A DNA stretch of 64,000 nt, taken from contig NC_014011.1 of assembly GCF_000025885.1 (NCBI RefSeq), positions 310,001 through 374,000 on the forward strand, read 5' to 3'. The stretch is from Aminobacterium colombiense DSM 12261. GTDB taxonomy: Bacteria > Synergistota > Synergistia > Synergistales > Aminobacteriaceae. Positions 6,676 through 40,395 of the stretch are shown piece by piece. Under the pieces are notes generated by a model. That model did not search any database and was not told the origin of the DNA. It was given only the letters and a program-made list of their open reading frames with translations. Position 1 is the first letter of the stretch; the number at the start of each line of letters is the position of its first letter. A program made the position numbers and the translations under genes.

Positions 6676-7071
6676 ATGCCAACTCCTTCCTATTTTTGGG
6701 GAACAGGAAGACGTAAAAATGCTATTGCTCGAGTAAGAGTTTGCCCGGGTGATGGATCTATAGAAATCAACGAAAGAACGGTTGAAGATTATTTCCCTCG
6801 CGAGGTCTGGCAGTCTCAGGCCCTTGCCCCTTTAAAAGTTGCGGGTATTGAGGGTAGAGTGAATGTCTTTGTCCGTGCCAATGGGGGCGGTCTTACCGGG
6901 CAAGCTGGAGCAGTTCGCCTTGGTATAGCAAGAGCCCTTTTAAAACTGAATCCGGAACTGCGCCCCGCTCTTAAAAAAGCTGGGTTGCTTACTCGGGATC
7001 CTCGCATGGTCGAAAGAAAGAAATTCGGTCAGAAAGGTGCTCGTGGGCTTCGTCAGTTCTCCAAACGTTAG
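6676..7071 (+). CDS. rpsI: 30S ribosomal protein S9
   Basis: 131 residues, full length. It shows the S9 signatures FWGTGRRKNAIARVRV at the N-terminus, NGGGLTGQAGAVRLGIARAL, and the basic C-terminal tail ending QFSKR whose final Arg reaches the ribosomal P-site tRNA. AAAGGAGG lies at a standard distance before the ATG. It is cotranscribed with rplM and followed by a hairpin terminator. Confidence 0.97.
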   Translation: MPTPSYFWGTGRRKNAIARVRVCPGDGSIEINERTVEDYFPREVWQSQALAPLKVAGIEGRVNVFVRANGGGLTGQAGAVRLGIARALLKLNPELRPALKKAGLLTRDPRMVERKKFGQKGARGLRQFSKR

Positions 7072-7092
7072 TTTTTTACAAAAAACACAATA

Positions 7093-7125
7093 CATACGGG
7101 GCGTTTTGTTAAAAAGCCCCGTATG
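7093..7125 (+). terminator. terminator-like hairpin after rpsI
   Basis: CATACGGGGC (7093-7102) pairs perfectly with GCCCCGTATG (7116-7125) across a 13-base T/A-rich loop. The run after it is only CTATCTTAATT, so it is a weak intrinsic terminator on the plus strand, or a 3'-end stabilising hairpin. Confidence 0.6.
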
Positions 7126-7164
7126 CTATCTTAATTAAAGCAGCTTTCTTTTCTAAAAGGAGCG

Positions 7165-7318
7165 ACACATGGATAGCGGTTTAGTCCCTTTATCGTGTAA
7201 CTACATTAAAATTTTAATGAACTAACTGGCGTCGAGTACGTTTTCACTCCTCATGGCAGGTTCGATAACGCCCGACGCCCGTCGGGTGTGAACTGATTCT
7301 CACCCTTTAAAAAAACTG
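7165..7318 (+). promoter_or_regulatory. structured leader with mutually exclusive hairpins upstream of mgtE (candidate riboswitch)
   Basis: The gap before mgtE contains several pairings: a possible ACAC/GTGT-based stem at ~7165-7199, the 16-base palindrome at 7204-7219 (ATTAAAATTTTAAT core), GGCGTCG (7228-7234) with CGACGCC (7273-7279), CCCGACG with CGTCGGG (7271-7277 with 7280-7286), and GGGTGTGA (7284-7291) with TCTCACCC (7298-7305, one T-T mismatch) followed by TTTAAAAAAA. The last three share bases and cannot all form, the usual design of a leader that switches between two folds. I do not see the conserved segments of the M-box magnesium riboswitch, so the class is unassigned. Confidence 0.45.
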
Positions 7319-7339
7319 TAACAAAGGGGGGAGATGCCG

Positions 7340-8692
7340 ATGAATGATTTGCACCACAAATTTCTCGAAAGCATCGATAAGCTTTTCCAGGCTAAAAAGT
7401 TTAAAAGTTTGAAAGAGCTGCTAAGCACTATGGAGCCTGCTGACATTGCTGAAATAATGGGTGAAAAACCTCCTGTTGAACGGGTTTTTCTCTTCAGGCT
7501 TTTAGCAAAAGACCTGGCCATAGAAGTGTTTGAGTTTATGGACAGCACAGAGATAGAAGAAATGCTGGCCCATTTCTCTGATAGTGAAGTTTCAGAAATT
7601 ATGGAAGAAATGTCAGATGACGACAGAACAGCTCTTTTCGATGAACTGCCCGCGAAAACCGTGAAAAAACTTCTATTGCGCCTTTCCCCAGATGAACGCA
7701 AAGTAGCAAACATGCTGCTGAATTATTCCCCAAGCTCTGCGGGGAGAATAATGACCCCGGAATATATAGATTTGAAAGAGGAAATGACAACAGAAGAGGC
7801 TGTTGGTCGAATTCGGAGGAATGCGCGCAGCAAAGAAACCATCTACACTTGTTTTGTTGTTGACACACAACGCTACCTAAAAGGCGTTGTCGATCTGGAA
7901 ACCCTTATTATGGCAGAACCTCACACCTTGGTGGGGGCTGTTATGGATGATCCTGTCTACGCTACAACGACTACAGACCAGGAAGAAGTGGCTCAGGTCA
8001 TGTCGAAATATGACTTGCAGGCCATTCCTATCGTAGATACCGAGAAGCGGCTTGTTGGCATAATAACCTTTGACGACGTTCTTGACATCATCGAGGAAGA
8101 GGCAACGGAAGACTTCGAACGAATGGCAGGTATCCAGCCGGTAGAAGAAAGCTATCTTGATGCGAGTGTATTTACGTTAGCAAGAAAACGTTTCATGTGG
8201 CTTTTTATCTGTATTTTAACAGAGGCGGTAACTTCAGTAGTATTAAAGAGGTATTCCTTCGCTCTCCAGAGTGTCGTAGCACTCACCTTCTTTATTCCTC
8301 TACTTATAGGAACCGGGGGCAATGCCGGCACCCAAGCCTCAACTCTTGTCATCCGCGGCTTGACCCTCGGCGATATAGAGTGGGAAGATATTGGCAAGGT
8401 GATTTTCAGGGAGATTCTTACCGGGATATTGCTGGGGGGAGCTCTAGCCATTTTTGGTCTTGGAAGAGCCTATATGCTTCATACAGGATATGGAGTGGCC
8501 TTGACAGTTGCTTTTGCCATCATCGCCGTAGTTCTTCTTGGGAACATGGCTGGAACTTTATTACCTTTCATTGCACAAATGCTTCATATAGATCCGGCAA
8601 TAATGTCTGGTCCCTTTATTACAACTATCGTAGACGTATTTGGGCTCATCGTTTATTTTGAAATAGCTCGAAACATCTTATCCCTTTCTTAA
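7340..8692 (+). CDS. mgtE: magnesium transporter MgtE
   Basis: About 450 residues with the standard MgtE order: a helical cytosolic N domain made of acidic repeats (residues ~10-130, with EIMEEMSDDDRTALFDEL), two CBS domains (~130-255) that sense magnesium, a plug helix, and five membrane helices from ~280 including the conserved LIGTGGNAGTQAS pore segment. It is a Mg2+ channel that closes when cytosolic Mg2+ is high. Two ATGs exist at 7334 and 7340; the G-rich ribosome site suits 7340. A complex leader precedes it, which suggests control at the RNA level, in keeping with other Mg2+ transporter genes. Confidence 0.95.
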   Translation: MNDLHHKFLESIDKLFQAKKFKSLKELLSTMEPADIAEIMGEKPPVERVFLFRLLAKDLAIEVFEFMDSTEIEEMLAHFSDSEVSEIMEEMSDDDRTALFDELPAKTVKKLLLRLSPDERKVANMLLNYSPSSAGRIMTPEYIDLKEEMTTEEAVGRIRRNARSKETIYTCFVVDTQRYLKGVVDLETLIMAEPHTLVGAVMDDPVYATTTTDQEEVAQVMSKYDLQAIPIVDTEKRLVGIITFDDVLDIIEEEATEDFERMAGIQPVEESYLDASVFTLARKRFMWLFICILTEAVTSVVLKRYSFALQSVVALTFFIPLLIGTGGNAGTQASTLVIRGLTLGDIEWEDIGKVIFREILTGILLGGALAIFGLGRAYMLHTGYGVALTVAFAIIAVVLLGNMAGTLLPFIAQMLHIDPAIMSGPFITTIVDVFGLIVYFEIARNILSLS

Positions 8693-24202: not shown

Positions 24203-24211
24203 TGCTACAAT
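24203..24211 (+). promoter_or_regulatory. possible extended -10 promoter for rplJL
   Basis: TGCTACAAT forms an extended -10 (TG-N-TACAAT) just after the rplA stop and just before the L10 leader. No good -35 is visible. It would give rplJL its own start in addition to readthrough. Confidence 0.4.
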
Positions 24212-24224
24212 AAGCACCTGACAA

Positions 24225-24365
24225 ACCAGAGACAGTGGGCGCGTTTAACGCCTAATGAATTCATATCACCCACCGAGGTTTGGAGAAAGACCCATAGAGT
24301 AGCCGTATAAGCTGCTTTCTTTGTGTACTTATCTCCCGGCCTTGATGGTTGGGAGATTTTTTTTG
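24225..24365 (+). ncRNA. L10 leader with terminator-type attenuator
   Basis: The 190 bases between rplA and rplJ carry the hallmarks of a ribosomal L10 leader: GGCG-TTTAA-CGCC hairpin region near 24240-24253, the CCCACCGAGGTTTGGAG stretch, and at the end ATCTCCC (24331-24337) pairing with GGGAGAT (24351-24357) followed by eight Ts. In other bacteria the L10(L12)4 complex binds such leaders to shut down the operon; the terminal hairpin suggests transcription attenuation here. Confidence 0.8.
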
Positions 24366-24380
24366 GGAGGAGGTGAACTC

Positions 24381-40185: not shown

Positions 40186-40395
40186 CAGAAGGGCAAAAAG
40201 AAGAGTTATCATATCACGCCCTCGCATGATAATGAACCACCAAGCTTTCCGATCGGTCTCCTGACTCCAGTTCATCCTCCCTCGCGCCTTCCCGGAAATT
40301 CCAGTGGCTTTGCGAGTTCGTCGCTGTTACAGTGGCGGGGCCGTTCTGGCTTTGCACCAGATTCCCTATACCGGAAAACAGACTTTCTTATTTGA
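40186..40395 (-). ncRNA. cobalamin riboswitch
   Basis: On the minus strand the sequence has all the hallmarks of an AdoCbl aptamer: GGTGCAAAGCCAGAACGG near its 5' part, CCCGCCACTGTAA, AGCCACTGG, GGGAAGGCGCGAGG, and the B12 box GTCAGGAGACC (40255-40265). It precedes the TonB receptor gene and its terminator, so B12 shortage should raise receptor expression. Confidence 0.95.

Follow-up and report, generated by a model that had tools for sequence, protein, structure and literature searches.

A putative leader-peptide attenuator ahead of the Mg2+ transporter gene mgtE in Aminobacterium colombiense and other Synergistota

The mgtE locus and the parts of its leader

The window analyzed here is a 64,000-nucleotide stretch covering positions 310001 to 374000 of the complete 1.98-Mb genome of Aminobacterium colombiense DSM 12261. 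Within it, rpsI precedes mgtE (in the region 6676-7340), and the encoded MgtE belongs to the Mg2+ transporter family by its Pfam domains, transport activity itself being a prediction. Of two candidate start codons, ATG 7340 is more likely than ATG 7334, because the latter directly abuts the Shine-Dalgarno (SD) sequence GGGGGGAG and congeners begin at the position of 7340; the choice is thus drawn from SD spacing and congeners. The earlier note on this DNA described three overlapping pairings in the mgtE leader but overlooked the key element, an SD-led upstream open reading frame (uORF) at 7169-7225, which is evident both in the sequence and in its relatives. The features of the leader, all on the plus strand, are as follows.

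7157-7162, plus strand: SD sequence AAGGAG of the uORF; an SD precedes the uORF in all related leaders
7169-7225, plus strand: uORF encoding the putative leader peptide MDSGLVPLSCNYIKILMN, with stop codon TAA at 7223-7225; its N-terminal codons are conserved, with synonymous change
7228-7234, plus strand: segment 1, GGCGTCG, the 5' strand of P1 (1:2), 2 nt past the uORF stop
7235-7272, plus strand: interior of P1; sequence not conserved and without an Rfam aptamer match
7271-7279, plus strand: segment 2; CGACGCC (7273-7279) pairs with segment 1 and CCCGAC (7271-7276) with segment 3
7281-7286, plus strand: segment 3, GTCGGG, forming the 3' side of P2 (2:3), with a GGG that also begins P3
7284-7305, plus strand: P3 (3:4), GGGTGTGA (7284-7291) with TCTCACCC (7298-7305), one U-U mismatch
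7299-7308, plus strand: anti-SD CTCACCCTTT, which can pair with AAAGGGGGGAG at 7323-7333 (P4, containing the mgtE SD)
7326-7333, plus strand: SD sequence of mgtE, GGGGGGAG
7340-8692, plus strand: mgtE; Pfam MgtE (7e-35), MgtE_N (1.1e-24), and CBS (3.8e-16)

The three pairings proposed earlier are present where they had been placed, with two corrections. The stem described as CCCGACG/CGTCGGG is real, although it has 6 bp (7271-7276 with 7281-7286) around a GCCC loop rather than 7 bp, since a seventh pair would leave a loop of 2 nt; the third pairing, 7284-7291 with 7298-7305, holds apart from a U-U mismatch (7289/7300). Together they make up a four-segment arrangement in which 1:2 plus 3:4 compete with 2:3. 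The anti-SD is found in 3/3 congeneric leaders, and P4 is predicted in full-length folds. Segment 1 (7228-7233) is also able to pair with GATGCC at the mgtE start (7333-7338; GACGCC in L004), a third alternative that stands outside the explanation developed below.

The order rpsI-mgtE recurs in several families of the phylum (L043, L044, L055, and L058), where the RpsI C terminus was read upstream, and a hairpin (7093-7102/7116-7125) lies between the two genes in the window. A promoter scan of the window leader found no canonical promoter; the only possible extended -10 element, TGCTATCTT, lies near 7125. In several genera, a promoter-like TCGACA-N17-TACTTT was read by eye 5' of the uORF (L005, L007, and L014). 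Elsewhere in the window, a cobalamin riboswitch (40234-40390, minus strand) and an L10 leader (24208-24371, plus strand) scored above the Rfam cutoff.

A conserved putative leader peptide before mgtE in Synergistota

We gathered mgtE leaders across Synergistota, labeling genera g2, g5, g8, etc., and numbering leaders with the prefix L. Many genera have an SD-led uORF ahead of mgtE that is conserved as a peptide, with the phylum-wide consensus M-[D/E]-x-G-x-x-P-L. The uORFs begin MDSGIVPLS or MDSGTVPLS within the genus of the window; MDSGAQPLS, MESGPQPLS, or MDSGSQPLS in g8; MDSGPQP or MDSGPHP in g2; MDSGPQR in g5; MESGSVPLC in g30; MDQGAVPLG or MDHDSVPLY in g27; MEEGASPL in g56; and, from reading the leader, MDQHADGIPL in g29. 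An acidic residue at position 2 is common to the Synergistota peptides, and Pro7-Leu8 is frequent. Among ungapped variants, codons 7 and 8 (Pro-Leu) show 53 synonymous and 0 nonsynonymous pairwise differences, and codons 2 to 4 show 268 differences at third positions versus 56 at first and 68 at second positions; these counts are descriptive, as they are pairwise over related sequences and the pairs are not independent. Given this synonymous excess, the uORF peptide is, by codon comparison, under selection, as befits a leader-peptide attenuator.

A search with a regular expression derived from the pattern and fixed in advance (M[DE].{1,5}P, strict SD) found such uORFs in 26/83 mgtE leaders outside g10, against an expectation of 1.3 in dinucleotide shuffles. 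A uORF of this type is absent from many mgtE leaders of Synergistota; in g10, the same search gave 0/16. Upstream stretches inspected at 20 mgtE loci of other phyla had no uORF of this type, and an MDSP... ORF in a Clostridia metagenome-assembled genome (L124) was dismissed as chance after its leader was read, as it lies far upstream. A longer DNA pattern for the uORF had 10 of its 61 matches across 188 genomes in mgtE leaders, with the rest near the control level; because of these many matches elsewhere, we rejected the DNA pattern alone as a specific marker.

The same genome carries a paralogous mgtE, ∼34% identical, with its own uORF, MDDVPSSRECLKFITSFRQASSFQYR followed by a stop codon (MDDVPSS...). 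The uORF of a congener's second mgtE is MDDVPGSSTCLKSAALFKQTSTRHFFSEV, also closed by a stop (MDDVPGS...), and uORFs of this paralogue type in genus g53 begin MEDPSSRSCVPLC and MDDPSSNVPLKC. The paralogue uORFs are consistent with selection for early acidic residues. Both second-gene leaders, L088 (G000:C1:1214274-1214784, minus strand) and the congener's L089, have SD-led uORFs that end near inverted repeats (CAGGCCTCC/GGAGGCCTG in L088). The uORF type first described also occurs in a form beginning MDAGP..., in g12 to g15, g17, g22, and g41. In these variants (L017, L018, L021 to L024, L029, and L061 to L065), the start region GCGCATGGACGC pairs with sequence 60 to 85 nt downstream, e.g., GGCGGGCCATGCGC, often better than in shuffled sequences and with sequence changes on both sides; this pairing could represent a different architecture that closes the uORF start. 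Four of five g8 genomes (L006, L008, L011, and L012) carry a tandem mgtE pair with the uORF leader before the first copy, and the fifth (G019) has one mgtE match.

Competing pairings in comparison and in folding

In 11/13 leaders from five genera, segment 1 lies within 4 nt of the uORF stop and pairings 1:2 and 2:3 compete; 10/13 show the full arrangement, including a 3:4 pairing that overlaps 2:3. With these criteria, which were chosen after the pattern was seen, dinucleotide shuffles of the same sequences gave rates of 0.7 to 4.3% without 3:4 and 0 to 2.3% with it. The distance from stop to segment 1 is 0 to 4 nt in 11 of 12 leaders analyzed and 12 nt in L032. The g30 segment 1, GGCATG pairing with CATGCC, stands 12 nt from the stop and follows the same logic with another sequence.

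Compensatory change and conserved pairings in related mgtE leaders, the check that the earlier note had named, were both found. Because a MAFFT alignment of whole leaders misplaces segment 1 in g2, pairs were tabulated from a hand-anchored alignment instead of a covariance model. One base of segment 2, in the fifth pair of both P1 and P2, covaries with its two partners: it is A in two congeners (U-A and A-U), G in a third (U-G and G-U), G facing C in either stem in g8 and g2 (C-G and G-C), and G paired with U in P1 and with C in P2 in g5. The sequence of P3 differs wholly between genera with complementarity kept (GGGTGTGA/TCTCACCC, GGGAT/ATCCC, and GGGTTTT/AAAACCC). Within the genus of the window, identity is 87 to 97% over uORF codons 1 to 10 and 48 to 67% over the rest of the uORF, 100% in segment 1, and 86 to 92% from the 3' strand of P1 to P3. 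The conserved islands thus coincide exactly with uORF codons 1 to 10, segment 1, segments 2 to 4, and the ribosome-binding site (RBS).

In the window, the predicted fold of 7224-7312 consists of P1 and P3 (-30.5 kcal/mol; z, -2.9; 2/200 shuffles as good). When leaders were folded at growing lengths with RNAfold, P1 stood at 0.86 to 1.0 in 12/12 once the 5' strand of P2 had emerged. Masking the first 14 nt of the 12 leaders, which mimics a ribosome at the stop codon, abolished P1 and gave P2 at 0.8 to 1.0 in 11/12 when the 3' strand of P2 had just emerged; in L032, with its larger gap, the flip came some nucleotides later. The mutually exclusive structures are therefore predicted to be chosen by ribosome position, in line with the comparison across leaders. 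The 1:2 and 2:3 pairings are close in predicted energy. In L002, P2 is transiently favored even without the mask, after P2 is complete and before segment 4 emerges; after segment 4 emerges, P1 and P3 return in unmasked L002 and L003, and P1 reaches only 0.29 in L004. At full length, equilibrium folds leave the mgtE SD mostly paired with or without the mask (unpaired, 0.03 to 0.15), and the switch must therefore be kinetic; since the SD is paired in every case, sequestration by P4 and its timing are put forward as a proposal. We rejected a further pairing, between the uORF SD and the interior of P1, because in no leader did it exceed shuffles. The P2 hairpin of g8 and g5 leaders has AUUUUC, UUUUCUC, or UUUUUC after it and may therefore act there as a transcription terminator. 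Comparison and folding thus establish a coding, conserved uORF in a fixed position, covarying alternative pairings, and a predicted flip upon masking.

What the leader may sense and how it relates to known systems

We consider it very probable that a leader-peptide attenuator precedes mgtE. That the leader is transcribed and translated, that it is coupled to the ribosome, and in which direction and to which signal (Mg2+) it responds, we infer. A ribosome at the uORF stop (7223-7225) would cover segment 1 (7228-7234), leaving segment 2 to pair with segment 3 and segment 4 free, so that its anti-SD (7299-7308) could pair with the mgtE SD (OFF). If the ribosome instead dropped off or stalled in the first codons (Met-Asp-Ser-Gly-x-x-Pro), segment 1 would be free, and the emerging RNA would adopt 1:2 and 3:4, leaving the SD open (ON). 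Where the 2:3 hairpin carries a short U-rich tail, as in some related genera, it would act as a terminator. The position-2 acidic residue and the proline farther along suggest that low Mg2+ would weaken early elongation, which would make the ribosome the sensor of Mg2+, in the manner of mgtL and mgtQ. We lean toward Mg2+ sensing through the ribosome, with some reserve because the window peptide has one acidic residue (Asp2) and one proline, weaker than the EPDP of MgtL and than the known examples. As a whole, an attenuator that ties mgtE expression to ribosome progress through the uORF, with Mg2+ acting via the ribosome, is the likely explanation.

The same attenuator might answer to a charged tRNA, for proline or another early codon, or to EF-P or another translation factor. 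Most variants keep Pro7, the proline codons of mgtL are important (PMC11552253), and Salmonella mgtP responds to charged tRNA-Pro (PMC8092293). Most variants, however, have one or two proline codons and no run of them, conservation of the position-2 acidic residue is at least as broad, and an Mg2+ transporter gene lies downstream in every leader examined, the paralogue having MDDVP; we regard such a signal as unlikely.

The earlier note was right that a two-state RNA switch stands before an Mg2+ transporter gene, as the recurring and covarying alternative pairings attest, and mutually exclusive structures ahead of a typical riboswitch client would suit a riboswitch whose unknown aptamer, in the P1-enclosed region, binds a metabolite or metal. 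The ligand-sensing 38-base domain that it proposed there is not supported: within the genus of the window, the enclosed region is 63 to 78% identical versus 60 to 79% for the first 60 nt of the mgtE match, its own small stems are not evidently conserved, and in other genera it is shorter and unlike in sequence. No conserved aptamer core was found within or between genera. Rfam searches of the window, of the leader itself, and at 13 related loci detected no regulatory RNA at the leader; a Chlorobi-1 match (21.6 bits; gathering threshold, 50) was set aside as chance. The absence of an M-box (RF00380) match at the leader agrees with the earlier reading that it is not an M-box, and the Mg_sensor of the enterobacterial mgtA leader (RF01056) was not among the matches of a scan with every Rfam 15 family. 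The M-box was found in 1/188 Synergistota genomes, with Bacillus subtilis and Lactococcus lactis controls that worked; this sole case is L133 (G134:C201:3688-3858; 58.8 bits). A riboswitch would not need a conserved coding uORF, and because a peptide-coding uORF abuts the switch, the ribosome is the likely effector. The leader RNA is thus probably not a ligand-binding riboswitch but a conserved leader gene beside a two-state fold, and we rate an unknown aptamer as very improbable.

Mg2+ might also act directly on folding of the leader RNA and leave the uORF a modulating role alone, a view that has been advanced for enterobacterial mgtA. Whether RNA or translation is the Mg2+ sensor is not settled in the mgtA case (PMC11552253), and 1:2 and 2:3 here are nearly equal in predicted energy; yet the peptide sequence is conserved, not the RNA alone, and a conserved tertiary core is missing, which makes direct sensing hard to credit. 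Functionless pairings that arose by chance, despite a whole-leader fold in the window that is only moderately unusual (z, -1.4), have next to no likelihood and are refuted in the main by shuffle rates of 0 to 2.3%, the uORF codon pattern, and the recurrence and tabulated covariation in several genera.

More broadly, ribosome-sensed acidic/proline leader peptides before two diverged mgtE lineages may form a general Mg2+ sensor of Synergistota, replacing the M-box, having evolved independently of mgtL, mgtQ, and corL, and linked to varied expression platforms (SD sequestration, terminator-like hairpin, or start-codon hairpin); we give this reading even chances. Only for a few leaders of enterobacteria is it established that the ribosome gauges Mg2+, and even there RNA versus ribosome sensing is still debated. 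If the reading is true, short peptides that vary across a phylum, precede an unrelated transporter, and retain only an initial acidic residue and proline would be natural replicates for the Mg2+ sensitivity of nascent peptides, and control of Mg2+ uptake in a phylum nearly without M-boxes would be explained.

Searches of the open-access literature gave nothing relevant on mgtL with MgtE or on Synergistota mgtE riboswitches. As far as we searched, attenuators of this kind have been described in enterobacteria, controlling mgtA, mgtB, and corA, with no report for MgtE or Synergistota, and the transporter class, phylum, and outputs are new. Like the M-box (ykoK), the leader is a two-state element before an Mg2+ transporter gene, a class that for the M-box includes mgtE, but it has no match to that family. 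The mgtE motif, a candidate regulatory RNA reported only from Thioalkalivibrio, also lies ahead of mgtE (PMC11109978); unlike the leader here, it is described with its SD and AUG at the foot of a large P4 stem, and the description consulted mentions no uORF. In the corA leader of Escherichia coli and Salmonella, translation of corL is likewise inverse to Mg2+ transporter expression (PMC11552253), but transporter and peptide are different and control is Rho dependent.

The nearest parallels are mgtL and mgtQ, and here too an Mg2+ transporter gene, by its Pfam MgtE domain, lies downstream of the leader. The window peptide has a single early acidic residue, Asp2, and we therefore file the leader as working like MgtL and MgtQ, not as a member of their class; two such residues do occur in MDDVPSS of the paralogue and in MEDPSS, MDHDSVPL, and MEEGASPL of relatives. 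In the mgtA leader of E. coli and Salmonella, mgtL is similarly a short, SD-led uORF with early acidic residues and proline before an Mg2+ transporter gene, and its translation selects alternative RNA structures (PMC11282234, PMC11552253). The E. coli peptide, 17 residues long in the MG1655 record, resembles most variants in its position-2 acidic residue, Pro7, and Leu8, and MESGPQPLS in Pro5 as well; both Glu2 and Asp4 of MgtL are required for ribosome destabilization and mgtA control (PMC11282234). In contrast, the mgtA transporter is a P-type ATPase and the one here is MgtE, in Synergistota; the window peptide lacks the EPDP motif; and termination there is Rho dependent, whereas the output predicted here seems to be either sequestration of the SD or a hairpin of the intrinsic type. 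In the Salmonella mgtC-mgtB intergenic region, the 8-amino-acid ORF mgtQ, with Asp2 and Glu5, governs translation of mgtB by way of a four-segment RNA in which 1:2/3:4 opposes 2:3 and sets access to the transporter RBS (PMC8092293), the same layout as that described here. It differs in its transporter, its intergenic position, and a segment 1 that lies inside the mgtQ ORF, and the 2:3 pairing, which is the ON state in mgtQ, would be OFF ahead of mgtE.
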